Below, piece after piece: positions 4,936 through 34,829 of a DNA stretch of 64,000 nucleotides (position 1 is its first letter; each line of letters begins with the position of its first letter). Below the pieces are notes generated by a model. That model did not search any database, was not told where the DNA came from, and saw nothing but the letters and a program-made list of their open reading frames with translations. The DNA is from Leifsonia sp. 1010 (GTDB lineage Bacteria; Actinomycetota; Actinomycetes; Actinomycetales; Microbacteriaceae). The stretch spans positions 1,240,001-1,304,000 of the forward strand of contig NZ_JAVDSL010000001.1 in assembly GCF_031455295.1 (NCBI RefSeq). Direction: 5' to 3'. The translations under genes were made by a program, and so were the position numbers.

Positions 4936-7584
4936 CTACGGCGTCGCCGTGATCGACAGTCCGTCGAACTGGTTGATCGCCGACTGCGTCACGTCGTGCG
5001 ACGTCGAGAAGATTCCGGCGTCTTGCGTCGCTGCCGCGGAGGCGAGGGTGACCGGCGAGCCGATCGGCACGTAGTTGACGCCGTCGTAGGAGTACGACGC
5101 CGTGTACGACGTGCCCGTGCGCGCGAGCTTCACCCAGATCGGCCGGAAGACGTCGACCGACGCCTTCGCTTCCGTATCGAGGTAGCCGTCGCCGTTCGCA
5201 TCCCACTCGAACACCACCCCGTTGCGTGCCGTCACCGCGACGACCGCGTAGCCGGCCGACGAGCCGGCCTTCGTGATGTCGTTGCGGACCATCACGCCCG
5301 ACTTCGCCGAGGCGTTCGCGTCGTTCACCGACACGACCCGTGCCGAGACCGCAGAGTTCGCGGTGAACGACCCGGCCTTGTAGATCGCCCCGAACTGGTC
5401 GGAGTGCTGACCGCCCGCGCCCCACACGTCCGCTCCGGCCGCGGCGATCCCGTAGGCGTCACCGGCCTGTCCGAAGTACGAGCTGACCGCGGAGGAGCCG
5501 GCCGTCGACAGGCCTTTGACGGGCGCATCCACCGGGCAGCCGGTGAACCCGAACTGGTTGGCGTTGAGCGACGTCCGGTACTGCGGCGCCACACCGGCCG
5601 CGCAGATCACGTCACGGGCGCCGGCGGGCCAGTTGGCACCGGAGACCTTGACGTTGTTGACCAGCGTGTTGTTGTGGGCCGCGGCGTTCGGGGCCGAGAC
5701 CCCTCCGGAGTTGTACCAGTTGTTCTGGATGGTGTTGTCGCTGGTGTTGTTCCTCAGGCTGTAGGCGTTCGTGAAGACGAAGGAGCCGCCCTGGACCACG
5801 TTGTTCTCGTAGGTCATGTACCGCGATCCCTCGTCGAGGTAGAGCCCGACGCCCGAGATGTTGAACAGGTAGTTCTTGTCGACGACCGATCCGGGGCTGG
5901 CGGACAGGTTGTAGACCGAGCCGCCGTCTGCGAAACGCGCCTTCGTGTTGTGCACGAGATTGCCCTCGACCCGGTTGTCCTTCAGGGTCGTCGGCGTCGT
6001 GTAGAGCGTGTTCCATTTGTAGTAGCCGCGGTCGACGTAGTCGTTCGAGCCGCCCGCGTCGTTGATGCCCCAGCCGTAGCCGGTGTCGATCCCGTCGTAG
6101 GGGACGTTGGACACCTCGTTGTGCAGGATCTGGGCCCGCGTCACGTAGGTGCTCAGAATCCCGCTGTTGTCCTTGTAGTCCACCGACACCCGGTCGATCG
6201 TGTTGTCCTGGATGCGGATGTCCTGGTTGACCATGCGGGGATCGCTCGGGTGGTGCGCGTCGGGGAGGACGCCTCCGACCGCGATGCCGTGACCGCTGTC
6301 CTCCATGAACCGGTTGCCGACGACGGCGATGTTGCTGGCGCCGTAGCCGACTCCGTTCGCCATGGCGTTGGTGTCGTTTCCGATGCCGAGAGCCGACGAT
6401 CCGAGGTTCGCGAACGTGTTGCCGGTGAACGAGATGCGGCTCGCCGCCGACACCTGCACGGCTCCGGGCTCCTGGTACCAGCTGGTGCGGGCGCGCTCGA
6501 ACATCTCGCAACCGCGGGAGCAGCTGGTGAACGCGTCGGCGGGCCGGTAGTCGTAGGCGCCCTTGATGAAGAGGCCGTTCTGCTGGTCGGCGTAGCCGTC
6601 GGTCGACGGACCCAGCCACGAGGTGCCCGAGAACTGGATGCCCTCGAACGACAGACCGCTCACCGGCTTGTCGTAGGTGCCGCCGATGCTGATCAGCGAC
6701 TGCAGACGAGGCAGGTCGATGTCGAGCTTGTTGGGGTCGACCCCGTCGGCCGGCTTGTAGTACAGCTTTCCGCCGTGCGGGTCGATGTACCACTGGTTGG
6801 TCTGCGTGAGGAAGGCGAGCGAGTTGTCGAGGTACCAGCTCGGTCCGGCCAGGAAGGAGTTCTGGACGGTGTCCCAGCCCCAGGTGTTGTTGTCCCACGC
6901 CGGCTGCGCCATCGTGATCTCGGTCAGGCTGATGCTCTGGACCGGCGAGCAGCGGTTGGTGAAGTCGCCGAGGGACTCGAACTCGATGCGGCTCTGGTCG
7001 GGGAGCCCGGCGAGGTACGCGAGCGCCGGGTTCTTGATCGTCAGACCGGTGGCGGTCGGCGTCACGTCGGCGTTGGCCAGGCGGATGGATGCGCGCGGGG
7101 CGATCACGCCGTCGACGTAGAGCTGGCGGGTGTCGAGCCCCGCCGGGGTGTCGGCGACCCAGATCCCGGCGCCGGCATCCGACTTCGTCCAGCCGGAGAC
7201 GTCGGATGCTCCGCTGATGACCGGGTGCGCGCCGGGGGCGGCGGACCAGTGGACCGTGTTCGTGCCTCCGCCGTCGTCGGCGTCGAAGGTGAGGGGCTTG
7301 CTGAGGCGATACGTGCCGTCGGCCAGCTGCACGGTGACGTCACCGTGCTTGACCGATGGGCGCAGCACGTGCTGGGCGCGCTCGAGGGAGCACGGCTGCG
7401 ACTGGGAGCAGTGCCCGGCGTCCTTGCCGTCGGGCGCAGCGTAGAAGATGGTCGCCGGCGCGGCCTGCGCCTTGAGCGGGATCAGCGCGGAGGCGATGAC
7501 GGCTGCGGCTCCGAGGACCGCAAGCACTGCGGGTCGTCCTCGTCTCCTGGCCATCGATCGTCGCGAGTCTGACGTCAATGTCAT
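4936..7584 (-). CDS. Secreted right-handed beta-helix carbohydrate-active protein with C-terminal ConA-like domain
   Basis: 882 residues. The N-terminus has a basic stretch, a hydrophobic core and an AQA-AP cleavage site near residue 42, so the protein is exported. Residues about 45-690 begin with the FYAAPDGKDAG / SLERAQ / VQLADGTYRL pattern of right-handed beta-helix glycosidases and then carry many N-rich short repeats typical of parallel beta-helix coils. Residues about 700-880 look like a DUF1349/LamG-type beta-sandwich with a FEWDANGDGYLD motif. Its layout resembles GH141-like proteins, but I cannot prove a family or activity. Operator copies in its promoter tie it to the sugar-acid regulon, so it probably releases the sugar used there. 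An in-frame ATG ten codons in is an alternative start. Confidence 0.8.
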   Translation of the reverse strand: MTLTSDSRRSMARRRGRPAVLAVLGAAAVIASALIPLKAQAAPATIFYAAPDGKDAGHCSQSQPCSLERAQHVLRPSVKHGDVTVQLADGTYRLSKPLTFDADDGGGTNTVHWSAAPGAHPVISGASDVSGWTKSDAGAGIWVADTPAGLDTRQLYVDGVIAPRASIRLANADVTPTATGLTIKNPALAYLAGLPDQSRIEFESLGDFTNRCSPVQSISLTEITMAQPAWDNNTWGWDTVQNSFLAGPSWYLDNSLAFLTQTNQWYIDPHGGKLYYKPADGVDPNKLDIDLPRLQSLISIGGTYDKPVSGLSFEGIQFSGTSWLGPSTDGYADQQNGLFIKGAYDYRPADAFTSCSRGCEMFERARTSWYQEPGAVQVSAASRISFTGNTFANLGSSALGIGNDTNAMANGVGYGASNIAVVGNRFMEDSGHGIAVGGVLPDAHHPSDPRMVNQDIRIQDNTIDRVSVDYKDNSGILSTYVTRAQILHNEVSNVPYDGIDTGYGWGINDAGGSNDYVDRGYYKWNTLYTTPTTLKDNRVEGNLVHNTKARFADGGSVYNLSASPGSVVDKNYLFNISGVGLYLDEGSRYMTYENNVVQGGSFVFTNAYSLRNNTSDNTIQNNWYNSGGVSAPNAAAHNNTLVNNVKVSGANWPAGARDVICAAGVAPQYRTSLNANQFGFTGCPVDAPVKGLSTAGSSAVSSYFGQAGDAYGIAAAGADVWGAGGQHSDQFGAIYKAGSFTANSAVSARVVSVNDANASAKSGVMVRNDITKAGSSAGYAVVAVTARNGVVFEWDANGDGYLDTEAKASVDVFRPIWVKLARTGTSYTASYSYDGVNYVPIGSPVTLASAAATQDAGIFSTSHDVTQSAINQFDGLSITATP

Positions 7585-7636: not shown

Positions 7637-7675
7637 CATACGTATGATGTTTACTGCAAGAGACGTATGATGTTT
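7637..7675. promoter_or_regulatory. Two operator copies upstream of the beta-helix gene
   Basis: Site A, CATACGTATGATGTT (7637-7651), has a perfect 10-base palindrome core. Site B (7660-7674) shares ACGTATGATGTT(T). The two are direct copies 23 bases apart. Read on the minus strand, a TTGCAG hexamer precedes site A, so the site sits where a -35/-10 spacer would be. The same sequence recurs at 8723 and 12145. Confidence 0.75.
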
Positions 7676-7691: not shown

Positions 7692-8678
7692 TCATGCCGG
7701 ATCGGGGGCGAGGCCCGCCGCATCCAACTCCTCCCAGAGGGCCTCCGGGATGTCCGCTCGGTAGCGCTCGACGGTGCTGCGCACATGGTCTTCCGTGCGC
7801 ATCCCTGTGACGACCGACACGACGGCGGGATGCCGCAGCGGGTACTGGATGGCGGCTGCGGGAAGGCTGACGCCGTGATCGCGGCAGGCGTCCGCGATCC
7901 GCCGTGCGCGCTCGACCACCTTCGCGGGCGCCGATCCGTAGTCGAAATGCGCAGCAGGGTCGATCGTCTCCGAGCTCAGCAGCCCGGAGTTGTAGACCGC
8001 CGCCGCGACGACACCGACGCCGCGTTCGGCCGCCAGGGGAAGCAGGTCGTCGAGCGCCGACGGGTCGAGCAGCGTGAAGCGGCCGGCCACCATGACCACG
8101 TCGACGTCGGTGCGGCGGACGAACTCCGCGAGCATCGCGGACTGGTTCATGCCGGCACCGATCGCTCCCACCACGCCCTGCTCGCGCAGCTCCACCAGTG
8201 CGTCGACGCCGGTGGTGGATGCGGCCGCCCAGTGGTCGTCCGGGTCGTGCAGGTAGGCCATGTCGAGCCGATCGGTGCCGAGTCGAGTGAGTGACTGCTC
8301 CACCGAGCGGAGGATGCCGTCGCGGCCGAAGTCCCAGACCCTGCGCGTGGCGGCCGGGACGACGAAGCCGTCGTCGTCGAGCCGGTCGGCGGTCTCCGGG
8401 CTGTCGACCAGCAGCCGTCCGACCTTGGAGGAGAGCGCGAAACCTGCGCGCGGCGTCTCGCCGAGGGCGCGACCGAGGCGGCGCTCGGAGAGGCCCAGCC
8501 CGTAGTGCGGCGCGGTGTCGAAGTACCGGAGGCCCTCCTCCCAGGCGGCGCCCACGGCGCCCTGAGCCTCCTCGTCGGTGGTCTCGCGGAAGAGGTTGCC
8601 GAGCTGGGCGGCGCCGAAGCCGAGTTCCGTCAGGTCGGTGCCGGTACGGAGGGTGCGGGTGGGCAGTGTCGGTGTCAT
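7692..8678 (-). CDS. Aldo/keto reductase, L-fucose/L-galactose (D-threo-aldose) 1-dehydrogenase-like
   Basis: 328 residues of TIM-barrel AKR type. The catalytic set is visible: D54 and Y59 in FDTAPHYG, K85 in SSKVGR, and an LHDPDD histidine further on. The GFGAAQLGNLFRETTDEEA opening is characteristic of the pyridoxal 4-dehydrogenase/L-fucose dehydrogenase branch, which oxidises an L-sugar C1 to the lactone with NAD(P). It is divergent from the Zn-dehydrogenase operon across a shared operator. Inferred role: the first oxidation of the pathway, feeding the lactonase at 16984. The exact substrate (L-galactose or L-fucose) cannot be read from the sequence. Confidence 0.85.
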   Translation of the reverse strand: MTPTLPTRTLRTGTDLTELGFGAAQLGNLFRETTDEEAQGAVGAAWEEGLRYFDTAPHYGLGLSERRLGRALGETPRAGFALSSKVGRLLVDSPETADRLDDDGFVVPAATRRVWDFGRDGILRSVEQSLTRLGTDRLDMAYLHDPDDHWAAASTTGVDALVELREQGVVGAIGAGMNQSAMLAEFVRRTDVDVVMVAGRFTLLDPSALDDLLPLAAERGVGVVAAAVYNSGLLSSETIDPAAHFDYGSAPAKVVERARRIADACRDHGVSLPAAAIQYPLRHPAVVSVVTGMRTEDHVRSTVERYRADIPEALWEELDAAGLAPDPA

Positions 8679-8722
8679 CGCAGGGCCTTCTTCGTCGGAG
8701 GAGCAGAATCGCTTCCTTTCAG

Positions 8723-8738
8723 CATACGTATTATGTTT
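8723..8738. promoter_or_regulatory. Operator copy in the divergent AKR / Zn-dehydrogenase promoter region
   Basis: CATACGTATTATGTTT matches the 7637 site at all but one of the first 15 positions. It lies between two divergent genes that start at 8678 and 8812 and could control both. Confidence 0.7.
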
Positions 8739-8811
8739 GGATCATTCGAGACGAGGACGTCACGCCGCGTCCGTTCCGGACAGGCGAGGGACGAGGAAGG
8801 AGCGGCCGGCG

Positions 8812-9828
8812 ATGTTGGCGGCGAACTACGCAGGCGAGCGCACGATCACGATCGAGGAGCGGGAGGCGGCGGAGCTGCGACCAGGCGAGGTGCGGATCGC
8901 CGTCGCGTACGCCGGGATCTGCGGCACCGACCTGCACATCTACCACGGCGACATGGATGCGCGGGTCACGCTGCCGGCCACGATCGGCCACGAGATGTCC
9001 GGCACGATCTCCGCGATCGGCCCGGACGTCGAGGGCTGGGCGGTCGGAGACGCGGTGACGGTCATGCCGCTGGCGTGGGACGGCACCTGTCCCGCCTGCC
9101 GGGCGGGCAACGAGCACATCTGCCAGAACCTCGACTTCATCGGCATCGACAGCCCCGGCGCCCTCCAGCAGAGCTGGAACGTCCCGGCCTCCACGCTCGT
9201 CCGCCTGCCGGACGGGGTGTCACTGCGGGACGCGGCGCTGGTCGAGCCGGTCGCGGTGGCCGTCCACGACGTGCGCCGGTCGGAGCTCGCCCCTGGCGAC
9301 CGGGCCGTCGTGATCGGCGCAGGTCCGATCGGCGTGCTCATCGCCACCGTCGCCAGCGCCTTCGGAGCCGAGGTCGTGATCGCGGAGATCGATCCCGGCC
9401 GCCGGGCCGCCGCGGAGGAGATGGGGCTGCGGACCCTCGACCCGAGTGCCGTTGACCAGGTCGCGTGGGTCGAGGAGTGGACCGGGGGAGCCGGCGCGGA
9501 CGTGGTGTTCGAGGTCTCCGGCTCGGCGGCGGCTGTGCTCGGCGCGACGTCGCTGGCGAAGGTCCGCGGCACACTGGTCGTCGTCGCAATCCACTCCCAG
9601 CCGCGGCCGATCGATCTGCACCGGGTGTTCTGGCGCGAGCTCCGCATCCTCGGAGCTCGCGTGTACCAGCGGCAGGACTTCGAGCGGGCGGTGGAGCTCG
9701 TCGCGGGTGGCGACATCCCCGCCGACCGGCTGATCACCCGGGTGGTTCCGCTCGCCGAGACGGCGTCGGCGTTCGAGGCACTGGAGGCCGGCGGAGCGAT
9801 GAAGATCCTCGTGGAGGTCGGCCGATGA
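8812..9828 (+). CDS. Zinc-dependent MDR dehydrogenase, probable sugar-acid 5-dehydrogenase
   Basis: 338 residues. Start at 8812, preceded by AGGAAGGAG. The catalytic zinc ligands appear as C37 (GICGTDLH) and H60-E61 (GHE). The NAD-binding Rossmann motif is GAGPIG. The structural zinc lobe reads DGTCPACRAGNEHIC, so only three of the usual four cysteines are present. First gene of an operon with the KduD-like dehydrogenase, aldolase and kinase, joined by an ATGA overlap. In known routes for L-galactonate, a dehydrogenase of this kind oxidises 2-keto-3-deoxy-L-galactonate at C5. That assignment is inferred from context. Confidence 0.85.
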   Translation: MLAANYAGERTITIEEREAAELRPGEVRIAVAYAGICGTDLHIYHGDMDARVTLPATIGHEMSGTISAIGPDVEGWAVGDAVTVMPLAWDGTCPACRAGNEHICQNLDFIGIDSPGALQQSWNVPASTLVRLPDGVSLRDAALVEPVAVAVHDVRRSELAPGDRAVVIGAGPIGVLIATVASAFGAEVVIAEIDPGRRAAAEEMGLRTLDPSAVDQVAWVEEWTGGAGADVVFEVSGSAAAVLGATSLAKVRGTLVVVAIHSQPRPIDLHRVFWRELRILGARVYQRQDFERAVELVAGGDIPADRLITRVVPLAETASAFEALEAGGAMKILVEVGR

Positions 9829-10586
9829 GCGGCTTCGACCTCTCCGGCCGGCTGGCGGTCGTCACCGGGGCGAAGCGCGGCATCGGTTTCGCGATCGCGG
9901 AGGCGCTCGCCGCGGCGGGCGCCGACATCGTCGGCGTCTCCGCGACCCTCGACCCCGAGGGCTCCGCGATCGGCGACCGGGTGCGGTCGCTCGGGCGGAG
10001 CTTCGAGGGGCACCGCGTCGACTTCGCCGACCGCGGCCAGGTCAGCGCGTTCGCCGCGGAGCTCGCCGCCCGCGACCGTCACGCCGACATCCTCGTGAAC
10101 AACGCCGGCACCATCCGGCGGGCCCCGGCGGCCGAACATCCGCTGGAGTGGTTCGACGAGGTGCTCGAGGTCGACCTGACGAGCGGGTTCGTGCTGAGCC
10201 AGGCGCTGGGCGGCCGGATGCTGGAAGCGGGCGGCGGCCGGATCGTCTTCACAGCCTCCCTGCTGTCGTTCCAGGGCGGCATCAACGTTCCCGGGTACGC
10301 CGCCGCGAAATCCGGGGTGGCCGGCCTCGTCCGCGCCCTCTCGAACGAGTGGGCCGGGAGGGGCGTGACGGTGAACGGCATCGCTCCCGGATACATCGCC
10401 ACCGACAACACCCAGGCTCTCCAAGACGACGAGGATCGCTCGCGGTCGATCCTCGAGCGCATCCCGGCCGGTCGATGGGGCACGCCGGAGGACATCGGGG
10501 GAGCGGCCGTGTTCCTCGCGTCCGACGCCGCCCGGTACGTCTCCGGGGCGATCCTTCCCGTCGACGGCGGGTGGCTCGGGCGATGA
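9825..10586 (+). CDS. kduD: KduD-like SDR, 2-dehydro-3-deoxy-D-gluconate 5-dehydrogenase
   Basis: 253 residues. Cofactor motif TGAKRGIG near residue 15, NNAG, a catalytic Ser after VFTA and the YAAAK active site. The late segment GYIATDNTQAL followed by RIPAGRWG is characteristic of KduD, which interconverts 2,5-diketo-3-deoxygluconate and 2-keto-3-deoxy-D-gluconate (KDG). It overlaps both neighbours by ATGA. Acting after the Zn-dehydrogenase, it would invert C5 and produce D-KDG. No KduI isomerase is in the window, which argues against a simple pectin/uronate route. Confidence 0.87.
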   Translation: MSGFDLSGRLAVVTGAKRGIGFAIAEALAAAGADIVGVSATLDPEGSAIGDRVRSLGRSFEGHRVDFADRGQVSAFAAELAARDRHADILVNNAGTIRRAPAAEHPLEWFDEVLEVDLTSGFVLSQALGGRMLEAGGGRIVFTASLLSFQGGINVPGYAAAKSGVAGLVRALSNEWAGRGVTVNGIAPGYIATDNTQALQDDEDRSRSILERIPAGRWGTPEDIGGAAVFLASDAARYVSGAILPVDGGWLGR

Positions 10587-11188
10587 CGGACTTCGAACCG
10601 ATCCTCCCCGTCGTCGTGATCGACGACGCGCGGGATGCCGAAGCGCTGGGTCGCGCGCTCCTCGCCGGCGGCATCCACCAGGCCGAGATCACGCTCCGGA
10701 CTCCGGCCGCTCGGGGCGCCCTGCGCACCCTGGCGGGGGTGCCGGGGTTGCGCGTCGGCGTCGGCACCGTCCTGGACCCGGAGCAGGCGGAGGCCGCGAT
10801 CGACGCCGGCGCCACCTTCGTCGTGAGCCCCGGGCTCTCCGAGTCCGTCCTCGCGGTGTGCGAGCGGCGCGGAGTGCACGCCGTTCCCGGCGCGGTGACG
10901 GCCACCGAGGTGATGCATGCCCGGTCGCTGGGGCTGCGCACGCTGAAGTTCTTCCCCGCCGAATCGTCGGGCGGGCCTGCGGCTGTGTCCGCGCTGTCCT
11001 CCGTGTTCCCGGACATCGCGTTCGTCCCGACCGGCGGCATCGACGCATCCAGCGCTGCCGGCTACCTCGCGCTGCCCTCCGTGATCGCCGTCGGCGGGAG
11101 TTGGATGGTGCCGCGCGCCGCCATCGCGGCCGGAGACTTCACCGGCATCGAGGTGCTGTGCCGGGCGGCGGTCGAGGCGGCGCGATGA
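10583..11188 (+). CDS. eda: 2-dehydro-3-deoxy-6-phosphogluconate (KDPG) aldolase
   Basis: 201 residues, the usual size for Eda. Residue E35 in AEITLRTP and the Schiff-base lysine K122 in LKFFPAE are present, and the C-terminal phosphate-binding glycine loop (PTGGIDASS) follows. The enzyme splits KDPG into pyruvate and glyceraldehyde-3-phosphate. ATGA overlaps on both sides place it between the KduD-like enzyme and KDG kinase in one translational unit. Function is well supported by sequence and context. Confidence 0.92.
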   Translation: MTDFEPILPVVVIDDARDAEALGRALLAGGIHQAEITLRTPAARGALRTLAGVPGLRVGVGTVLDPEQAEAAIDAGATFVVSPGLSESVLAVCERRGVHAVPGAVTATEVMHARSLGLRTLKFFPAESSGGPAAVSALSSVFPDIAFVPTGGIDASSAAGYLALPSVIAVGGSWMVPRAAIAAGDFTGIEVLCRAAVEAAR

Positions 11189-12135
11189 GCGGCCACGTGC
11201 TCACCTTCGGCGAGACCATGGGTCTCTTCCGTGCGACGGAGCTCGGCGGACTCGCCGACGTGGAGAGCGCGAGGATCGGCACCGGCGGCGCCGACAGCAA
11301 CGTCGCCATCGGCCTCAGCAGGCTCGGGATCCCGGCCGCCTGGGTCGGACGGGTCGGCGCCGACGGACTCGGGCGGAGGGTGGTGCAGGACATCCGCGGT
11401 CAGGGGGTGGATGCGCGCCCGATCGTCGATCCCGAGCATCCCACCGGGCTGATGATCAAGGAGAAGCGCACTCCGCACACCACCAAGGTGTGGTTCTACC
11501 GCTCGGGAAGCGCGGGCGGCCGGCTGCGGCCGGCGGACATCGACCGCGAGCTGATCGAGACCGCCGCGCTGGTGCACGTCACCGGTATCACCGCATCCAT
11601 CTCCGGGTCCGGTCGCGAGACCGTCCATGCCGTGCTGGACGCGGCACGCGCCGCGGGCGTCCCCGTGTCGTTCGACGTGAACCATCGGAAGGCGCTCTGG
11701 CCGAGTGGGGATCCGGCGCCGGTGTACCGGGAGGTCGCCGCATCCGCCGACGTGATCTTCGCGGGGGACGACGAGGCCGCCCTGCTTCTCGGCCTTCCCG
11801 CGGGCGACATCGCGGGCCTCGTCGACGGGATGCGCGCCCTCGGGCCGTCGACGGCGGTCCTGAAGCGCGGGGCGGCGGGCAGTGCGGCCTCCGACGGCGG
11901 AGCGCTCGTGGAGCATCCCGCGCGGCAGGTGCCGGTCGTCGACACGGTCGGCGCGGGCGATGCCTTCGTCGCGGGCTTCCTCGCGGCCCGCCTGCGCGGG
12001 GAGACGCTGCCCGAGTGCCTGGCCCTCGCTACGAGCGCGGGCGCGTTCGCGTGCCTCGGCTGGGGCGACTGGGAGAGCATGCCGCGGATGGACGAATTGG
12101 CGCTCCTCGACGACTCCGAGCCGGTGTCGCGCTGA
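11185..12135 (+). CDS. kdgK: 2-dehydro-3-deoxygluconate (KDG) kinase, PfkB family
   Basis: 316 residues of the ribokinase/PfkB fold. The N-terminal GGADSNVAIGLSRLG segment binds sugar, and DTVGAGDAFVAGF near residue 258 holds the catalytic Asp and the anion hole. It would phosphorylate KDG at C6 for the aldolase encoded just upstream. Last gene of the 8812-12135 operon. The need for a C6 hydroxyl is an argument that the sugar degraded here is not only 6-deoxy L-fucose. Confidence 0.9.
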   Translation: MSGHVLTFGETMGLFRATELGGLADVESARIGTGGADSNVAIGLSRLGIPAAWVGRVGADGLGRRVVQDIRGQGVDARPIVDPEHPTGLMIKEKRTPHTTKVWFYRSGSAGGRLRPADIDRELIETAALVHVTGITASISGSGRETVHAVLDAARAAGVPVSFDVNHRKALWPSGDPAPVYREVAASADVIFAGDDEAALLLGLPAGDIAGLVDGMRALGPSTAVLKRGAAGSAASDGGALVEHPARQVPVVDTVGAGDAFVAGFLAARLRGETLPECLALATSAGAFACLGWGDWESMPRMDELALLDDSEPVSR

Positions 12136-12139
12136 ACGC

Positions 12140-12169
12140 TTGGCAAACATCATACGTATGCCCTATAGT
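12140..12169 (+). promoter_or_regulatory. Sigma70-type promoter with the operator inside its spacer
   Basis: TTGGCA (12140-12145), an 18-base spacer, then TATAGT (12164-12169). The operator AAACATCATACGTATG (12145-12160) fills the spacer, so a bound repressor would block RNA polymerase. It drives the importer/dehydratase operon that starts at 12224. Confidence 0.75.
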
Positions 12170-12223
12170 CTGAATCACGCCTCCTCGGAGTCGTCAACGA
12201 AGTCGACAAGACAAGGACATCTC

Positions 12224-13597
12224 ATGGTCGGAATCCACACTGTGGTGCGTTCACGCCGTAGGCCGGCGCTGACCGTCGCCGCACTTGGCGCCGCGACGGC
12301 GCTCCTGGCCCTCACCGGTTGCAGTACCGGCGGGAGCTCGGCGAACGGGTCGTACGGCTTTCCCGAAGCCAAGCAGGACACCTCCTCGACGATCACCGTC
12401 TGGGTGGACGCGGACCGTCAGGCCGCGGCGAAGGCATTCGAGAAGGCGAACCCGGACACCAAGATCAAGGTCGTCACCTACGACGGGTCGGCCAACGGCT
12501 CCAACTCCTTCAGGACGAAGATGCAGCTCTTCGACCGCGCCGGCAGCGGCTGGCCGGACGTGGTCTTCTCCAGCCAGAACAACGACGCCGCCTGGGCGAG
12601 CCAGAAGAGCAACGGCAAGCAGGCCTTCGCCGCGGTGCTCGACAAGGGGCTCGTCCCCAAGGACACCCTCGACAACTTCACCGAGGGCGCCCTCAACCCC
12701 TGCACCGTCAACGGTCAGGTGTACTGCCTCCGCAACGACCTCGCCCAGGCCGTGCTCTGGTACGACAAGACCCTGATGGACAAGTTCGGCTACGCCGTCC
12801 CCACCACCTGGGAGGAGTACCAGGCGCTCGGCGAGAAGGTCGCGACCGAGCACCCCGGTTACATCATCGGAACCGCCGGTGACGCCTGGACGCCCGAGGT
12901 GTTCATGTGGGGCAGCAAGTGCCAGGCCAACGACATCACCGGCCCGAAGTCGGTGACCGTCAAGACCGACAGCACCGAGTGCAAGCGCGCCGCCACCCTG
13001 CTCGACACGCTCCGCGAGAACAAGACGGTCCCGGCCGTCAGCGTCTTCACCCCGGAGTTCGTCAAGAGCTACGCGGGCAGGGTGCTGATGATGCCCGGCC
13101 CGGCCTGGTACGCCGGCGCCATCTTCAACAACCCGCAGTCGCTGAACGTGCCCGCGGGCGAGCTCGGCGTCGCTGCCCCGCTGCCCTGGAAGGGCGAGGA
13201 CAAGGCCGTGACCGGCAACGTCGGCGGCGGCACCTGGTTCATCTCCAGCCACTCCAAGAACCTTAAGGCCGCCGAGAAGTTCGCGCAGTTCGTGACGACC
13301 TCCGACGACTACCAGGTGGATGTCGCCCCCGGCTACCCGGCGTACGCGCCGGCGGCCAAGAAGTGGGTCGAGAAGCAGGAGGCCAGCAAGTACTACGCCA
13401 CCTCGCTGCAGCCGGTCGTCACGGCCGCTTCGCAGGTGTGGGACGGCTGGGGGTTCGGCATCTTCAGCCAGGAGGCGGTCTGGGCCAAGACGATGACCCC
13501 GGCCATCACCGGCGGGAAGTCGATCGAGAGCCTGCTGCCGACCTGGCAGGAAGCCATCGCGAACCAGGCCAAGGTCGACGGATACAAGGTGAACTGA
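12224..13597 (+). CDS. Sugar ABC transporter substrate-binding lipoprotein
   Basis: 457 residues, starting at 12224 after an AAGGA box. Signal peptide with the lipobox LTGC near residue 28, so it is anchored outside the membrane. The mature part has the ITVWVDADRQAAAKAFEKA opening of group-1 (MalE-like) binding proteins. Longer in-frame starts upstream fall inside kdgK and are rejected. It precedes two permeases and three pathway enzymes in one operon behind the operator-bearing promoter. The ligand is inferred to be the sugar or a short glycoside released outside. Confidence 0.92.
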   Translation: MVGIHTVVRSRRRPALTVAALGAATALLALTGCSTGGSSANGSYGFPEAKQDTSSTITVWVDADRQAAAKAFEKANPDTKIKVVTYDGSANGSNSFRTKMQLFDRAGSGWPDVVFSSQNNDAAWASQKSNGKQAFAAVLDKGLVPKDTLDNFTEGALNPCTVNGQVYCLRNDLAQAVLWYDKTLMDKFGYAVPTTWEEYQALGEKVATEHPGYIIGTAGDAWTPEVFMWGSKCQANDITGPKSVTVKTDSTECKRAATLLDTLRENKTVPAVSVFTPEFVKSYAGRVLMMPGPAWYAGAIFNNPQSLNVPAGELGVAAPLPWKGEDKAVTGNVGGGTWFISSHSKNLKAAEKFAQFVTTSDDYQVDVAPGYPAYAPAAKKWVEKQEASKYYATSLQPVVTAASQVWDGWGFGIFSQEAVWAKTMTPAITGGKSIESLLPTWQEAIANQAKVDGYKVN

Positions 13598-13598
13598 C

Positions 13599-14540
13599 AT
13601 GACCCTCGCTCCACCGAGCGACCAGCTGGCCGCCGGCGCCCCTGAGCGCCGGCGGTCGGCCCGGCTTCGCGGCCGGGCACCGGGACGCACGCCCATCGGC
13701 TACGTCTTCGTCTCGCTCTACGCCCTGCTCGCCATCGCCTTCGGCATCCTGCCCGCCCTGTACGCGGTGCTGCTCGCCTTCACCCGGGCGGACGGCGGAT
13801 TCGCCGGCATCGACAACTTCATCACGGTCGTCACCGACTTCCGGTTCTGGCCGGCCGTGCTGCACGTGACGATCTACCTCGTCATCTGGCTGATCGGCCT
13901 GGTGGTGTTCGTCGTGCTGCTCGCGCTCGTGGTCCACGCCCTGCGCGTGCGCTGGGCGAGCACGAGCCTCCGGTTCATCTACTACCTGCCGGGGGCGCTC
14001 GCCGGCGCCTCCAGCGTCCTGCTCTGGCTGTTCGTGCTCGACCCGACGGCCAGCCCGGTCAGCGGACTGCTCCGGCTGATGGGCCTGAACAGCTTTGTGC
14101 AAGTCATCCAGCCCGGCAACCTTCCTGCCATCTTCGCCATCATCGCGTTCTGGACGGGCGCGGGCGGCTGGATCGTCATCATGTACGGCGCGCTCAACAA
14201 CATCAGCACCGACGTGATCGAGGCGGCGCGCATCGACGGGGCCAACGCCGTGCAGATCGCCCTCCGCATCCAACTGCCGATGCTGCGCAAGTGGATCGCG
14301 TACATGGGGGTGATGTCGCTGGCGGCCGGCACGCAGCTGTTCGTCGAGCCCCAGTTGCTCAGCCAGGCGAGCAACGCCGTGGTCCCCAACGACTACTCGC
14401 TCAACCAGCTCGCCTACCAGTACGCGTTCCAGCAGAACGACTTCAACGGCGCCGCCGCGATCTCACTGCTGCTGCTGATCGTCGCGCTCCTGCTGTCCTG
14501 GGTGTTCGTCACCCGCGGCGGCCTGTTCGAGAAGGAATGA
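13599..14540 (+). CDS. Sugar ABC transporter permease (MalF-like)
   Basis: 313 residues. The start is one base after the binding-protein stop. A basic N-terminus precedes about six membrane segments, and the EAA loop (EAARIDGANAVQIALRIQLP) lies in the C-terminal third. Pairs with the next gene, whose start region overlaps its stop. Confidence 0.93.
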   Translation: MTLAPPSDQLAAGAPERRRSARLRGRAPGRTPIGYVFVSLYALLAIAFGILPALYAVLLAFTRADGGFAGIDNFITVVTDFRFWPAVLHVTIYLVIWLIGLVVFVVLLALVVHALRVRWASTSLRFIYYLPGALAGASSVLLWLFVLDPTASPVSGLLRLMGLNSFVQVIQPGNLPAIFAIIAFWTGAGGWIVIMYGALNNISTDVIEAARIDGANAVQIALRIQLPMLRKWIAYMGVMSLAAGTQLFVEPQLLSQASNAVVPNDYSLNQLAYQYAFQQNDFNGAAAISLLLLIVALLLSWVFVTRGGLFEKE

Positions 14541-14542
14541 CC

Positions 14543-15445
14543 ATGACCGCACTCACCGCAGAGCGCCGCCGCGCCAGTCTGCGCGGCTGGAGCGGACGCT
14601 CCATCGCGGGCGTCATCCTCGCCGTCTTCGTGCTGTTCTTCGCCATCCCGATCGTCTGGCTGCTCTTCGCGGTGACCAAGTCGTCCAAGGCGCTGATCGT
14701 CGCCAACCCGTTCTCGATCGGCTCGTGGTCGGACTTCGTCGCCAACTGGAACCAGCTGTTCGGCTTCCAGGACGGCGCGGTGACGCTGTGGATCGGCAAC
14801 TCGGCGCTGTACTCGATCGGCGCGCTGATCATCACGCTGATCGTCAGCATCCCGGCCGGCTACGCGCTGGCGCTGACCGAGTTCCGGCTCCGCAAGGCGC
14901 TGCTCGTGCTCACCCTCGTCGTCATGCTCATCCCGAGCACGGCGCTGGTGCTGCCGATCTTCCTGGAGCTCAACAGCGTCGGCCTGATCGGGAGTCCGCT
15001 GTCGGTGATCCTGCCGATGTCGTTCTTCCCGTTCGGCGTCTACCTGACGTACATCTACTTCTCGACGAGCATCCCGCGCGACCTGCTCGCAGCCGCGCGG
15101 ATCGACGGCTGCACCGAGTTCCAGGTGTTCACCAGGGTCGCACTTCCGCTGGCCGCTCCGATCGTCGCGCTGGTGGCGTTCTTCAGCTTCGTGCAGAACT
15201 GGAACAACTTCTTCCTGCCGTTCGTCATGCTCCCCTCGAGCGACGGCTACCCGATCCAGGTCGGGCTGACCTCGCTGCTGTCGGCGACCCCGGCCTTCAA
15301 CCCCAGTTCGGCGGGTTCCGACTCGGTCCAGCTGCCGACGTTGGCGCTGGCGACGATCGTGTCGATCCTGCCCGTCCTGATCGTCTTCCTGTTCTCGCAG
15401 CGGTTCCTCGTCTCGGGGATGACCGCGGGAGGGACCAAGGAATGA
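14543..15445 (+). CDS. Sugar ABC transporter permease (MalG-like)
   Basis: 300 residues. The ATG at 14543 is preferred because GAAGG lies 7 bases upstream; an in-frame ATG at 14537 overlaps the previous stop. About six membrane segments and the EAA loop (AAARIDGCTEFQVFTRVALP). There is no ATPase gene in the cassette, as in the other two sugar importers of this window. Confidence 0.92.
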   Translation: MTALTAERRRASLRGWSGRSIAGVILAVFVLFFAIPIVWLLFAVTKSSKALIVANPFSIGSWSDFVANWNQLFGFQDGAVTLWIGNSALYSIGALIITLIVSIPAGYALALTEFRLRKALLVLTLVVMLIPSTALVLPIFLELNSVGLIGSPLSVILPMSFFPFGVYLTYIYFSTSIPRDLLAAARIDGCTEFQVFTRVALPLAAPIVALVAFFSFVQNWNNFFLPFVMLPSSDGYPIQVGLTSLLSATPAFNPSSAGSDSVQLPTLALATIVSILPVLIVFLFSQRFLVSGMTAGGTKE

Positions 15446-15473
15446 GCACGTCCGCACCGAAGGAGAACCACCG

Positions 15474-16652
15474 ATGAAGATCACGGGCTATCGCAGTCTG
15501 AGCACCGTCCACGACTGGGGCCGGGTCACCGGCGACGTCAACGGCGTGCAGACGGGCAACACGACGCCCGTCCCCGTGCTGCTCATCGAGACCGACAGCG
15601 GTATCGAAGGGGTCGGGGTCGGAGCGCATGCCGACATCGCCCGGGTGTTCCCGGCGGTCGAGGGGGAAGATCCCCGATCGGTCGTCGCCCTCTACGACCG
15701 GATGCTCGACTGGGTGTTCAAGGCCGGCCACTCCGGGACCACGTTCGGCACGATCGGCGCCATCGATATGGCGTTGTGGGACCTCAAGGCGAAGGCGGCG
15801 GACGAGCCGCTCTGGCGGATGCTCGGTGCGCGCGAGCGGTTCGTGCCCGGGTACGCCTCCGGACTCGAGTACGGCCTGACCGACGACGAGCTGTCCGACC
15901 TCTACGGCCGGTTCGCCGACCGCGGGTTCAAGGCGGGCAAGCTGAAGGGCGGCCGCGACCTCGACCGCGACCTCCCGCGCTTGGAGTTGTTGCGCGACAT
16001 CCTCAGCCGCAACTCACGGCATCCCGCACTCATGTTCGACGTCAACGAGTCGTGGAACCACGCGCAGGCCGCACGCTATGTCGGCGCCATCGAGGAGCGC
16101 CTCGACCTCACCTGGATCGAGGAGCCCCTGCGCCGATGGGATGCGGCGGGCATGTCCTCGCTGCGCGGCAAGATCCGCGCGGCCGTGGCGAGCGGCGAGA
16201 ACCTGACCGGCCTGGAGCAGTACCGGCCGCTGCTCGACAGCGGAGCGGTGGATGTCGTCCAGGTCGGCAACGTCTGGGGCATCACGCACCTGCTCCGCGT
16301 CGCGACCCTCGCCCACGGGCACGACCTGCCGGTGAGCCCGGTCACCTACAACACCAACCCGGCCGCCCATGCCGCCGCCGCCATCCCCAACCTGCTCACG
16401 CACGAGGTGCAGGACCTCTCCTTCCCCGTCGGCCTCGACGTGGACCAGGAGTTCGACGACGGCGGCATCGTCCTCGGCGACCGCCCGGGGATCGGCATCA
16501 TCGTGGACGAGGCCAAGCTGACGGGGGAGGGCGGAACGCCCGCTCCTCCCGCGACCGGTCCGCACATCCGCCCGGAGCGCGCCGCACTGCGGCTGGTGGC
16601 CGAGCCGGATGTCATCGACGACCCGACCGTGCCGCTGAGGCCGGTCTCGTGA
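15474..16652 (+). CDS. Enolase-superfamily (mandelate racemase-like) sugar-acid dehydratase
   Basis: 392 residues, start at 15474 after AAGGAG. The metal ligands are visible: D189 (FDVNESW), E216 (WIEEP) and E242 (ASGENL). The KxK base motif is K156/K158 (GKLKGG). By eye alignment, the Asp-His dyad of mandelate racemase is replaced by Q263 and V290, which is unusual. Flanked by importer, mutarotase and lactonase genes, it is inferred to dehydrate L-galactonate or L-fuconate to the 2-keto-3-deoxy acid. The family is firm; the substrate is not. Confidence 0.85.
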   Translation: MKITGYRSLSTVHDWGRVTGDVNGVQTGNTTPVPVLLIETDSGIEGVGVGAHADIARVFPAVEGEDPRSVVALYDRMLDWVFKAGHSGTTFGTIGAIDMALWDLKAKAADEPLWRMLGARERFVPGYASGLEYGLTDDELSDLYGRFADRGFKAGKLKGGRDLDRDLPRLELLRDILSRNSRHPALMFDVNESWNHAQAARYVGAIEERLDLTWIEEPLRRWDAAGMSSLRGKIRAAVASGENLTGLEQYRPLLDSGAVDVVQVGNVWGITHLLRVATLAHGHDLPVSPVTYNTNPAAHAAAAIPNLLTHEVQDLSFPVGLDVDQEFDDGGIVLGDRPGIGIIVDEAKLTGEGGTPAPPATGPHIRPERAALRLVAEPDVIDDPTVPLRPVS

Positions 16653-16987
16653 GCGGCGAGCCGCAGCGCTTCGCCTTCGTCGTCGGCGTCCGGCCCGAGA
16701 AGCGCGAGGAGTACCTCGAACTGCACAGCGCCGTGTGGCCGGGCGTCGAGGCGAAGCTGACCGAGTGCAACATCCGCAACTACAGCATCTTCGTCTTCGG
16801 CGACATCCTCTTCGCCTACTACGAGTACGTCGGCGACGATCACGCCGCCGACATGCAGCGGATCGCGGACGACCCGGTGTCGCAGGAGTGGTGGACCCAC
16901 ACCGACCCGTGCCAGGTCCGGATCGCCGACGAACGCGACCCGGGCTCCCTCTGGCAGCCGATCGACGAAGTGTGGCACCTGCGATGA
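16649..16987 (+). CDS. L-rhamnose/L-fucose mutarotase (RhaM type)
   Basis: 112 residues from a GTG that overlaps the dehydratase stop (GTGA). The segments LHSAVWPGV, NYSIF and a WWTHTDPCQ end are typical of RhaM-like dimeric mutarotases, which interconvert alpha and beta anomers of L-sugars. The presence of this family argues for an L-sugar as the pathway substrate. The stop overlaps the next ATG, so all three catabolic genes are coupled. Confidence 0.85.
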   Translation: MSGEPQRFAFVVGVRPEKREEYLELHSAVWPGVEAKLTECNIRNYSIFVFGDILFAYYEYVGDDHAADMQRIADDPVSQEWWTHTDPCQVRIADERDPGSLWQPIDEVWHLR

Positions 16988-17817
16988 CCGACCGGATCGA
17001 CGCGCACGTGCACCTGTGGGACCGCTCCACCGATCCGCAGGACTGGATCGATCCGGTCACGATGCCGGCGATCGACCGCGACTTCGGCACGGACGACCTG
17101 CAGGGGATGCTGGCGGCGACGGGGATGGACCGCGCCGTGCTGGTGCAGGCGAGCAACAGCCTCGAGGAGAGCGTCCGGCTCTCGCGAAGCGACCCGCAGG
17201 TCGTGGCGGGCCTGGTCGCCTGGGTCGACCTCGCGGAGGACGTCGGCGCCCAGCTCGATGAGGTGCGTGCGGGATCGATTCCGGTCGTCGGCATCCGGCA
17301 TCTGGCCCACATCGACCCGGACCCCGAGTGGATGCTGCGCGCCGACACCGCCGCCGGTCTCGCCGCCCTCGGTCGCGAAGGGCTGGTCTTCGATCTCGTG
17401 ATCCGCGACTGGCAGCTGGAGCAGGCGGCGCGCGTCGCCGCCCGCAACGACGGCGTCTCGTTCGTGCTCGACCACCTCGGCGGTCCGCTCGCCGAGGACG
17501 CGGAGGCGTCGCGATGGGAGGCGGGGCTGCGTGCGCTCGCGGCCCTCCCTAACGTCTCGGCCAAGGTCTCCGGGCTCACGTCGGGGCTGGTGTCGGGCAC
17601 GTGGACGGCCGACGACCTTCGCGGTATCGTCTCGACGGCGCTGGAGGCGTTCGGTCCCGACCGCCTGCTCTACGGCTCCGACTGGCCGCTCGCCGAGCTC
17701 GGCGGTGGCGCTCCCGCGTGGCGCGCGGCGTTCGACACGCTGGTCTCCGAACTGTCTCCGGCAGAGCAGGACGCCCTGCTGGGCGGCAACGCGGTCCGGG
17801 TCTACTCGCTCGCCTGA
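16984..17817 (+). CDS. Amidohydrolase-family sugar lactonase (L-fuconolactonase-like)
   Basis: 277 residues. The N-terminal DAHVHLWD metal-binding motif, VGIRHL, an LDHLGGP strand and the terminal YGSDWPL motif match the amidohydrolase_2 lactonases that open L-fucono- and L-rhamnono-lactones. Start at 16984 by ATGA overlap with the mutarotase. Inferred to hydrolyse the lactone made by the AKR at 7692, giving the acid used by the dehydratase. Its 3' end overlaps the convergent GntR gene by 16 bases. Confidence 0.87.
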   Translation: MTDRIDAHVHLWDRSTDPQDWIDPVTMPAIDRDFGTDDLQGMLAATGMDRAVLVQASNSLEESVRLSRSDPQVVAGLVAWVDLAEDVGAQLDEVRAGSIPVVGIRHLAHIDPDPEWMLRADTAAGLAALGREGLVFDLVIRDWQLEQAARVAARNDGVSFVLDHLGGPLAEDAEASRWEAGLRALAALPNVSAKVSGLTSGLVSGTWTADDLRGIVSTALEAFGPDRLLYGSDWPLAELGGGAPAWRAAFDTLVSELSPAEQDALLGGNAVRVYSLA

Positions 17818-18593
17818 ACCTCTTCGCGCGCCTGGTCCGGCCGGGCGCCGGGCGCGTGATCCGGAAGCCGGCGACGCTCCCACGAGATGTGGATGTGATC
17901 GTGCATGGCCCGCTCGGCGGCGGCCGCATCCCCGCTGGCGATGGCCTCGACGATGGCCGCGTGCTCGTCCAGGGTCAACGCAACGGCGTCCGGCGGGTTG
18001 ATGCCCTGGTACCGGCTGGACTCGACGGCCCTCTTGTAGAGGTGCTTGGCGATGTTCTCGGCGAGGCGGTTGCCGGAGATCTCCATGAGCGCGTAGTGGA
18101 AGACCACGTCGGCCTGCCGGAAGGAGTCCGTCTCCGACTCGCTCTCGCGCATCGCCGTGAGCGCGTTCTCGAGGCGCCGGAGTCCGTCGGCCGTGTGGGA
18201 GCGGGCGACAGCGCCCGCCATCGCCGATTCCAGGCTCGCGCGCACGACGGTCAGCTCATCGAGCACGCCGAGGCTCTCGTCGTTGTCGATGAGGGCCGAG
18301 AGCACCACCGGGTCGAGCATGTTCCAGTAGCCGGGCGCCTGGACCTGCGTGCCGCGGCCCTGGGACACGATCACCAGGCCCTTCTCCTCCAGCCGCTTCA
18401 CGGACTCGCGGAGGACCGTGCGGCTGACCCCGAAGTGCTCGCTCAGCGGGCCCTCCGGCGGCAGGAGGTCGCCCTCCTTCAGCTGGCCCGTGACGATGAT
18501 CTCGACGAGCTCGGCGACGACGGCGACGCCCAGTCGCGCGGCGGGCAGCCGCTGCGGGATGAGCCGGGCTGCAGCGTCGGAGTCGGTCGCCAT
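17802..18593 (-). CDS. GntR-family regulator, FadR/FCD subfamily
   Basis: 263 residues. The ATG at 18593 was chosen; longer frames run into the GH35 gene. N-terminal winged helix (LPPEGPLSEHFGVSRTVLRE, then a wing ending in GRGTQVQ), followed by an all-helical FCD ligand domain with the DVVFHYALMEISGN metal-site helix. Such regulators sense sugar acids and other carboxylates. It sits tail-to-tail with the catabolic operon, and a near match to the regulon operator covers its own start codon. It is the best candidate regulator for the CATACGTATG sites (inference). Confidence 0.9.
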   Translation of the reverse strand: MATDSDAAARLIPQRLPAARLGVAVVAELVEIIVTGQLKEGDLLPPEGPLSEHFGVSRTVLRESVKRLEEKGLVIVSQGRGTQVQAPGYWNMLDPVVLSALIDNDESLGVLDELTVVRASLESAMAGAVARSHTADGLRRLENALTAMRESESETDSFRQADVVFHYALMEISGNRLAENIAKHLYKRAVESSRYQGINPPDAVALTLDEHAAIVEAIASGDAAAAERAMHDHIHISWERRRLPDHAPGARPDQAREEVQASE

Positions 18594-18605
18594 AGGTATG
18601 ACCTT
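18591..18605. promoter_or_regulatory. Variant of the regulon operator at the gntR start
   Basis: CATAGGTATGACCTT matches 12 of 15 positions of the site at 7637. The first CAT is the gntR start codon on the minus strand. It could be an autoregulatory site. The match is good but the position makes chance possible. Confidence 0.45.
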
Positions 18606-18610
18606 AGCGC

Positions 18611-34154: not shown

Positions 34155-34829
34155 ATGCCGGCTCGGTCCACCGCGAGCGATCCAACCTTCCGACGAGCGA
34201 TTCTCTGCGCCCTCGCGATGCTGGCGGTGCTCGTCGGATTGTGGGCTTCTGCTGCGTCCGCTTCTGCCTCTCCGGCTCACGAGCCATGTCCAGCTCACCG
34301 AGATGCCGCTTCCTGTGACGCCGATGGCGACACGGTGCCGGACACCGTCGAGCGCGTGGTCGCCGGTACCGCGACGGGCGCCACCGGGCGCGAAGACGCC
34401 GACAAGGATGGCGTCCCGGACTGGACCGAGGTGATGGCCTGCGGGACGGCGCGCTGCGCGTCCCCTGCTCAGGACAGTGCCGGCGATGGGATCCCGGACT
34501 ACGCCCGGACACTGACCTGCGGTTCGGCGAAGTGTTACACGGACAACGCCGACGCTAACCGCAATGGGGTGCCGCGCTGGGCGAGTGTGGTGATCTGCGG
34601 AACCACGGAATGTGCGACGGGGCACGAGGACTACGATGCCGACGGCGTCTCCGATGCCATGCAACTGGCGGCCTGCGTGAAGCCGCGCGGCGATCTGGCG
34701 TCGACGGGTCAGGCGATCGCGGTCTGGTTGATCATCGCGTTCGCCGCCGGGTTGATCGTGACGGGCGCCCTGCTTGCCCGGAAGCGCGCGCTGTTCGCCG
34801 CCGCCGTCCGTCCCACCGGGATCGCGTGA
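34155..34829 (+). CDS. Sortase-anchored (LAxTG) surface protein with calcium-binding-type repeats
   Basis: 224 residues. A signal peptide (residues 1-40) is followed by five DxDxDGxxD-like repeats at about 55-63, 81-89, 107-115, 132-140 and 159-167, similar to thrombospondin type-3 calcium loops. Most are followed by a CGxxxC pair (residues 96/101, 122/127, 148/153). The C-terminus has LASTG (181-185), a hydrophobic span (187-208) and RKRA, the pattern cleaved by class E sortases. It should therefore sit on the cell wall. The stop overlaps the RHS gene start (TGATG), so the pair is co-translated. No sortase gene is in the window. Confidence 0.85.
   Translation: MPARSTASDPTFRRAILCALAMLAVLVGLWASAASASASPAHEPCPAHRDAASCDADGDTVPDTVERVVAGTATGATGREDADKDGVPDWTEVMACGTARCASPAQDSAGDGIPDYARTLTCGSAKCYTDNADANRNGVPRWASVVICGTTECATGHEDYDADGVSDAMQLAACVKPRGDLASTGQAIAVWLIIAFAAGLIVTGALLARKRALFAAAVRPTGIA

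Follow-up and report, generated by a model that had tools for sequence, protein, structure and literature searches.

The window analysed here, 64,000 nucleotides of the 3.88-Mb Leifsonia sp. 1010 genome (contig NZ_JAVDSL010000001.1, positions 1,240,001 to 1,304,000), carries between its positions 4936 and 18593 a sugar-catabolic cluster that is, on balance, probably one GntR-controlled alpha-L-galactoside regulon, converting L-galactose to 2-keto-3-deoxy-6-phosphogluconate (KDPG) with dehydration before the C5 step. In the proposed pathway, a secreted enzyme of the glycoside hydrolase family 141 (GH141) type would free the sugar from alpha-L-galactosides, and an ATP-binding cassette (ABC) importer would take up the freed L-galactose. 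A mutarotase, an aldo-keto reductase (AKR) and a lactonase would turn it into L-galactonate, from which an enolase-superfamily dehydratase would produce 2-keto-3-deoxy-L-galactonate (L-KDGal). A Zn-dehydrogenase would oxidise L-KDGal at C5 to a 2,5-diketo acid, which a KduD-like short-chain dehydrogenase/reductase (SDR) would reduce to 2-keto-3-deoxy-D-gluconate (D-KDG). KDG kinase would then yield KDPG, and KDPG aldolase would act last, the whole set standing under one regulator. All the substrates, the order of steps and the polymer source are ones that we infer from sequence comparison. The pathway most likely joins the upper half of L-fucose catabolism to the lower half of 3,6-anhydro-L-galactose catabolism. 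An earlier note on this DNA had proposed the route from L-galactose to KDPG, and it stays the best reading, partly supported by a separate fucose cluster in the same genome and by an ending of the anhydrogalactose type, the enzyme specificities being putative.

The eight enzymes that the earlier note listed are all present where it placed them, in clean reading frames, and all exceed the gathering score of their Pfam family, in agreement with the families it had named; the ABC importer, the GH141-type protein and the GntR/FCD regulator had been overlooked (Table 1). Five gene junctions of the cluster are 4-bp overlaps. Each of the five solved relatives of the AKR at E<=1e-20 carries the name L-galactose dehydrogenase (97-119 bits). 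The mutarotase scores 114 bits against the L-fucose mutarotase 7byu, 41 against YiiL, at most 34 against L-rhamnose mutarotases and 47 of 99.6 against the NCBIfam L-rhamnose mutarotase model. For the lactonase, NF052480 (fuconolactonase) gives 172.6 of 400 bits, and the nearest solved relative is 4dlf (112 bits), named just 'Amidohydrolase 2' in the PDB, which we take to be the Burkholderia L-fucono-1,5-lactonase. Because L-fucose is 6-deoxy-L-galactose, fucose-like relatives alone cannot separate the two sugars. In the lower part of the pathway, the nearest solved relatives of the Zn-dehydrogenase are general medium-chain dehydrogenases, and the SDR reaches 302.7 bits on TIGR01832 (KduD), below the cut-off of 338.85, its nearest solved relative being the KduD-type 2-deoxy-D-gluconate 3-dehydrogenase 4z9y (239 bits). 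The kinase scores 188.6 of 440 against the NCBIfam KDG/KDGal kinase model; a paralogue 48% identical to it adjoins ManD and another KDPG aldolase elsewhere in the genome, a neighbourhood that supports its assignment as KDG kinase.

Table 1. Features of the proposed L-galactose cluster, in window coordinates
Feature	Position	Strand	Family, score or remark
Secreted parallel beta-helix, GH141-like glycosidase; candidate alpha-L-fucosidase / alpha-L-galactosidase	4936..7584	-	137 bits to 5mqp (BT_1002)
Operator copy 1, CATACGTATGATGTTT	7637..7652	+	exact; before GH141 gene
Operator copy 2	7660..7675	+	2 mismatches; before GH141 gene
AKR, putative aldose 1-dehydrogenase (L-galactose / L-fucose type)	7692..8678	-	PF00248 Aldo_ket_red
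Operator copy 3	8723..8738	+	1 mismatch; between divergent AKR and Zn-dehydrogenase genes
Zn-dependent medium-chain dehydrogenase, proposed L-KDGal 5-dehydrogenase	8812..9828	+	PF08240/PF00107 (ADH_N/ADH_zinc_N)
KduD-like SDR, proposed 2,5-diketo-3-deoxy acid reductase giving D-KDG	9825..10586	+	adh_short
KDPG aldolase	10583..11188	+	PF01081 KDPG/KHG aldolase; TIGR01182 220 vs cut-off 156
PfkB-family kinase, KDG kinase	11185..12135	+	PF00294
Operator copy 4	12145..12160	-	exact; before ABC importer
ABC importer, solute-binding protein	12224..13597	+	PF01547
ABC importer, permease 1	13599..14540	+	PF00528, 27.7 bits of 26.4
ABC importer, permease 2	14543..15445	+	PF00528
Enolase-superfamily acid-sugar dehydratase, proposed L-galactonate / L-fuconate dehydratase	15474..16652	+	PF13378/PF02746 (MR_MLE)
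rhaM-family mutarotase, L-fucose-mutarotase-like	16649..16987	+	PF05336
Amidohydrolase lactonase, L-fuconolactonase-like	16984..17817	+	PF04909 Amidohydro_2
GntR-family (FCD) regulator	17802..18593	-	PF00392 + PF07729 above cut-off
Degenerate operator, CATAGGTATGACCTTA	18591..18606	+	at start codon of GntR regulator

Elsewhere in this genome, at C1:1568525-1594000 (L156, L149 and L155), lies another L-fucose cluster, one of the classical type. Its L-fuconate dehydratase (C1:1568528-1569814) scores 597 bits to FucD of Xanthomonas campestris pv. campestris (Xcc), its AKR is 52% identical to that of the window, and its lactonase reaches 184 of 400 bits on NF052480. An SDR, a FAH hydrolase and a rhaM-family mutarotase are also found there, along with a GntR-type gene, a second enolase-type protein, an ABC importer and an LldD-like protein, followed by a melibiase-like gene and by what appear by eye to be glycosidase genes, one of them GH95-like. 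FucD is present in 20 of the 21 actinobacterial genomes that bear a window-type cluster; the genome without it, Arthrobacter MI7-26, has FAH and SDR genes inside its window-type cluster (L076). No FAA_hydrolase (FAH) match occurs among the window cluster proteins, the five matches in the genome all lying outside the window. For the 6-hydroxy analogue, L-galactose, one would expect just such a parallel cluster, in which mutarotase, AKR, lactonase, dehydratase and importer recur but the pathway closes with a kinase and an aldolase. In view of the separate cluster with FucD, L-fucose was rejected as the sole substrate. Comparative genomics favours L-galactose over L-fucose as the substrate; L-fucose may use the upper steps as well, and its product would then leave by the fucose branch at C1:1568525-1594000.

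Comparable clusters are found in Leifsonia, Kribbella, Streptomyces and Arthrobacter. Presence in a locus was scored as a tblastn match over analyst-set identity thresholds within the fetched stretch, and absences in genomes reached through loci are provisional. In the 119 loci examined, the Zn-dehydrogenase gene has the KduD-like gene next to it at 67 of 67 places. This number includes near-duplicates, L045 and L085 being one record and L046 and L093 another; L040, a copy of L060, was removed before counting. Both KDPG aldolase and KDG kinase lie within 4.5 kb at 24 of these places, and at 12 of 20 in the loci centred on the Zn-dehydrogenase (L157-L176), where FucD is found in seven and the window-type dehydratase in one; seven of the 20 (L170-L176) come from genomes that also carry the dehydratase. 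The module stands without a window-type dehydratase in the locus in L157, L158, L161, L163, L164, L165, L168-L170, L172, L175 and L176, some with FucD and some with no recognised dehydratase. Across 299 family genomes, the dehydratase is found in 32, the Zn-dehydrogenase in 36 and both in 22, against about 4 by chance (Fisher 1.3e-16; relatedness is ignored in the Fisher tests). These family-wide searches scored at most six candidates per genome for the dehydratase, seven for the Zn-dehydrogenase and eight for FAH, and can miss genomes: G192 has a Zn-dehydrogenase (L051) yet does not figure among the genomes that the Zn-dehydrogenase search listed. Recurrence in other genera and co-occurrence above expectation indicate that the gene set is more than chance.

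The lower module has a precedent in agar degraders, in which conversion of L-KDGal through a 2,5-diketo acid to KDG and KDPG has been proposed and partly tested (PMC5943477, PMC5069468, PMC9706016), the C5 dehydrogenase/reductase pair being named in a figure legend of PMC5069468. By analogy, the Zn-dehydrogenase and the KduD-like protein fit the proposed end of this 3,6-anhydro-L-galactose route. The stereochemistry fits as well: reasoned from Fischer projections, C5 epimerisation of L-KDGal yields D-KDG. A DapA-family aldolase as the last step was rejected, both genome matches lying outside the window. The idea that the window kinase and aldolase serve uronates is weakened by a separate cluster at C1 ~1649600-1654000 (L150), in which ManD (680 bits, cut-off 550) is accompanied by its own KDPG aldolase, KDG kinase and a major facilitator superfamily-like transporter; this is likely a uronate/mannonate cluster.

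The dehydratase belongs to a clade other than the FucD-type L-fuconate dehydratases. Its AlphaFold model (pLDDT 88.3) has the mandelate-racemase subgroup fold, and it scores 158 of 500 against the NCBIfam talarate/galactarate dehydratase model. The KxK motif and the metal ligands (K156, K158, D189, E216 and E242) are kept in 100 of 100 orthologues; the Asp-His pair is absent, its aligned positions being taken by G265 and V290, which are Gly and Val in 97 and 99 of the 100, respectively. In the dehydratase tree the window sequence groups with Leifsonia. The tree divides, though not without exceptions, into a mainly pseudomonadotan part associated with FAH and a mainly actinobacterial part associated with the Zn-dehydrogenase. 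The 14 alphaproteobacterial genomes with the dehydratase carry FucD (E<=1e-100) in four cases, the Zn-dehydrogenase (E<=1e-50) in one and FAH (E<=1e-65) in all. Nine have neither FucD nor the Zn-dehydrogenase; each of these nine has a FAH homologue, which in five lies inside the fetched locus. These nine genomes argue that the dehydratase probably acts before C5 epimerisation, its alphaproteobacterial orthologues presumably taking the un-epimerised acid; the enzyme could also act on both un-epimerised and epimerised acids. FAH presence alone says little, since FAH homologues are widespread: 147 of the 299 family genomes, 30 of the 32 dehydratase genomes (tallied by hand from genome lists) and 31 of 31 genomes tested through loci.

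A common set of operator sites ties the cluster together. The 16-mer CATACGTATGATGTTT stands before three transcription units, and the window contains four matches at up to three mismatches against 0.04 expected. In the whole genome, six matches are found at up to two mismatches, four of them within the cluster, and the reversed control pattern has none. The two sites outside the cluster were dismissed, one overlapping the start of a flagellin gene and the other lying in an RNA-methyltransferase region (both named by eye). No operator at up to three mismatches occurs in L149, which covers the middle of the separate fucose cluster. For comparison, 80 loci were grouped by dehydratase identity, with limits cut by the analyst at 78% and 65.5%: group A (at least 78%, n=23), group B (65.5-78%, n=33) and group C (below 65.5%, n=24). 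Sites with at most one mismatch are found in 23/23, 19/33 and 3/24 loci, respectively, with none for the control, and in group A they mostly precede the same genes as in the window. Regulator orthologues (at least 40% identity) are present in all 23 group-A loci; they follow the lactonase gene, except in L076 and L081, where FAH and SDR genes precede them. Near the regulator, 15 of the 23 loci have a variant site with CTTA at its end (CATACGTATGACCTTA in eight, CATACGTATGATCTTA in six, CATACGTGTGATCTTA in one), which coincides with the regulator start in L062, L065 and L069, the loci checked. A single regulon is well supported by the shared operators and the cluster-borne regulator, both conserved across group A, in line with the single-regulon arrangement suggested earlier; we infer that the GntR protein binds the operator. 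On the strand of the GntR gene, and ending 17 bp short of its start, lies a GH35 beta-galactosidase gene (18611-20374, -), from which transcription could run on into the regulator. Membership of this GH35 gene in the system was rejected, as an ABC importer operon and a LacI-like gene (by eye) adjoin it on its upstream side; no GH35 at 50% identity or more was found in any of the 80 loci.

L-Galactose is a rare sugar of plants, present in their pectins, xyloglucans and mucilages. The putative glycosidase of the cluster has a signal-like N-terminal stretch, judged by eye, and scores 24.6 bits on PF21231 (GH141_M), under the cut-off of 27. D553 and D584 align with both catalytic Asp residues reported for BT1002 (PMC10154630, PMC12786026), a match that assumes the PDB chain to be numbered 5 higher, the offset being taken from equal spacing. 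GH141 relatives act on L-fucose linkages in rhamnogalacturonan II, on xylan, or as endo-fucanases (PMC10154630, PMC12786026).

Several rival explanations share part of this evidence. It is possible, though unlikely, that epimerisation comes first, the Zn-dehydrogenase converting L-galactonate to D-tagaturonate, the SDR yielding D-altronate and the dehydratase D-KDG, with the same net result. A two-dehydrogenase C5 epimerisation to D-altronate was reportedly described in Acidovorax by Watanabe et al. in 2019. L-Galactonate 5-dehydrogenation is the step used by E. coli, Bacteroides and Luteolibacter, and known L-galactose routes oxidise C5 first (PMC12632266); Xcc FucD, moreover, has residual activity on D-altronate (PMC13406643). 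However, the SDR fits KduD (303 bits) far better than the gluconate 5-dehydrogenase models (at most 210), the C5 module is also found beside FucD, and the nine alphaproteobacterial genomes mentioned above keep the dehydratase and FAH where the Zn-dehydrogenase is absent. Decidedly improbable is an L-fucose cluster in which GH141 frees L-fucose and the upper steps lead to 2-keto-3-deoxy-L-fuconate (L-KDF), the other dehydrogenases and the kinase serving something else. The nearest solved relatives of the mutarotase and the GH141-type protein are fucose enzymes, as is that of the lactonase if 4dlf is indeed the fuconolactonase, and orthologues of the dehydratase lie beside FAH and SDR genes in alphaproteobacteria and Arthrobacter. 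The window cluster, however, has no FAH hydrolase and no second SDR, and FucD, as noted, has its own cluster here and is nearly always present in genomes with window-type clusters. The earlier note had argued that L-fucose catabolism would need no C6 kinase. A 6-deoxy acid can indeed use neither the kinase nor the aldolase, but L-fucose may still be a substrate, given the orthologues beside fucose-branch genes.

That the substrate is another sugar, namely D-arabinose, 3,6-anhydro-L-galactose, or L-talose, L-gulose or L-idose, seems more improbable still. The last three are rarer, which counts against them. An AKR-type dehydrogenase of this kind is active on D-arabinose as well, which it oxidises (PMC6336799), but a pentonate would offer the C5 epimerising pair no secondary C5 hydroxyl. 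The end proposed for the anhydrogalactose route corresponds to the lower module, yet that route begins with an aldehyde dehydrogenase and a cycloisomerase (PMC9706016), in place of which the cluster has an AKR and a lactonase.

The L-galactose reading has its own difficulties, and the following observations weigh against it. Only the aldolase passes its curated NCBIfam cut-off, the other cluster enzymes scoring below. Within group A, the aldolase is in the cluster in only 3 of 23 loci and the kinase in 4 of 23; the 16 genomes whose cluster lacks both at the thresholds used all have a KDPG-aldolase-family gene, and a kinase homologue (E<=1e-40) is found in 11 and in none of the other five. Group C dehydratases have FAH nearby in 11 of 24 loci and the Zn-dehydrogenase in only two. 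L-KDGal is also a substrate of the L-KDF 4-dehydrogenase of Herbaspirillum (kcat/Km 1480 vs 7900 per min per mM; PMC11199699), so L-galactose could run through the fucose branch, and Xcc FucD has residual L-galactonate activity (PMC13406643); given such cross-activities, the fucose and L-galactose pathways can leak into each other. Lastly, no GH141 L-galactosidase is reported in the available parts of PMC10154630 and PMC12786026.

Compared with known systems, the cluster resembles the non-phosphorylating L-fucose pathway of Xanthomonas, Burkholderia and Herbaspirillum (FucM, FucA, FucB, FucC/FucD, FucF, FucG) in its mutarotase, 1-dehydrogenase, lactonase and acid-sugar dehydratase, a likeness of homology only, and the C2-C4 stereochemistry is the same for both sugars. 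It differs in having no FAH hydrolase and apparently no 4-dehydrogenase-type SDR, its sole SDR fitting KduD best; instead, it has a different enolase-type dehydratase, the C5 module, a kinase and an aldolase. The 3,6-anhydro-L-galactose pathway, found in Pseudoalteromonas atlantica, Postechiella, Vibrio EJY3 and Streptomyces coelicolor (SCO3486/SCO3480), would share the proposed L-KDGal, which is also made there by an enolase-superfamily enzyme, followed by a C5 dehydrogenase, a C5 reductase and KDG kinase; the window cluster has a dehydrogenase/reductase pair of fitting families. Entry is from the anhydro sugar through an aldehyde dehydrogenase and a cycloisomerase, with neither a lactone nor L-galactonate dehydration, and no aldehyde-dehydrogenase-type anhydrogalactose dehydrogenase was found among the 13 cluster proteins scanned. 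The tagaturonate/altronate route of E. coli, Bacteroides vulgatus (BVU_0219/0222) and Luteolibacter (Lgu) shares the AKR-type L-galactose dehydrogenase, KDG kinase and KDPG aldolase; LguA clusters with GALDH_ARATH and BVU_0219 (PMC12632266). In that route C5 oxidation precedes dehydration, whereas the Leifsonia evidence favours dehydration first, and among the same 13 proteins there is no UxaA/UxaB-type altronate dehydratase or tagaturonate reductase, for which non-orthologous replacement is possible. The dehydratase shares with L-fuconate dehydratase (FucD/ENOSF1) and L-talarate/galactarate dehydratase the mandelate-racemase-subgroup fold, the KxK motif and three metal ligands, but Gly and Val replace Asp-His, and identity to solved members is 22-30%.

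Among the matches listed in the open-licence literature, neither an actinobacterial L-galactose cluster of this kind nor use of L-galactose by soil actinobacteria appears; the subscription literature lay mostly outside reach. A bacterial L-galactose pathway is, judging by its title, the subject of a 2019 paper by Watanabe et al. in Molecular Microbiology. An Acidovorax L-galactonate dehydratase of another superfamily has been placed in a then unidentified L-galactose metabolism (PMC6336799). A broader proposal, which we advance tentatively and hold to be rather doubtful, is that an unassigned enolase clade of actinobacteria and alphaproteobacteria dehydrates L-galactonate and L-fuconate without Asp-His, and that its actinobacterial pairing with a C5 module of the anhydrogalactose type, controlled by a GntR regulator of its own, forms an L-galactose-to-KDPG route, parallel to L-fucose catabolism but separate from it and fed by a GH141 enzyme of new specificity on plant alpha-L-galactosides. 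The L-galactose reading, if right, would give a function to an enolase-superfamily clade present in at least 80 genome loci, provide a candidate L-galactosidase within GH141 and offer a clean evolutionary case of a pathway built from halves of L-fucose and anhydrogalactose catabolism.

Two other features were seen. A further AKR lies just left of the window cluster (L003:14388-15338, -), among GH1-like and glyoxalase-like genes, an ABC importer and a ROK regulator. Further along the window, positions 34610-41125 (+) encode an RHS-repeat protein in which 21 repeats were matched and which has a DUF6531 domain.

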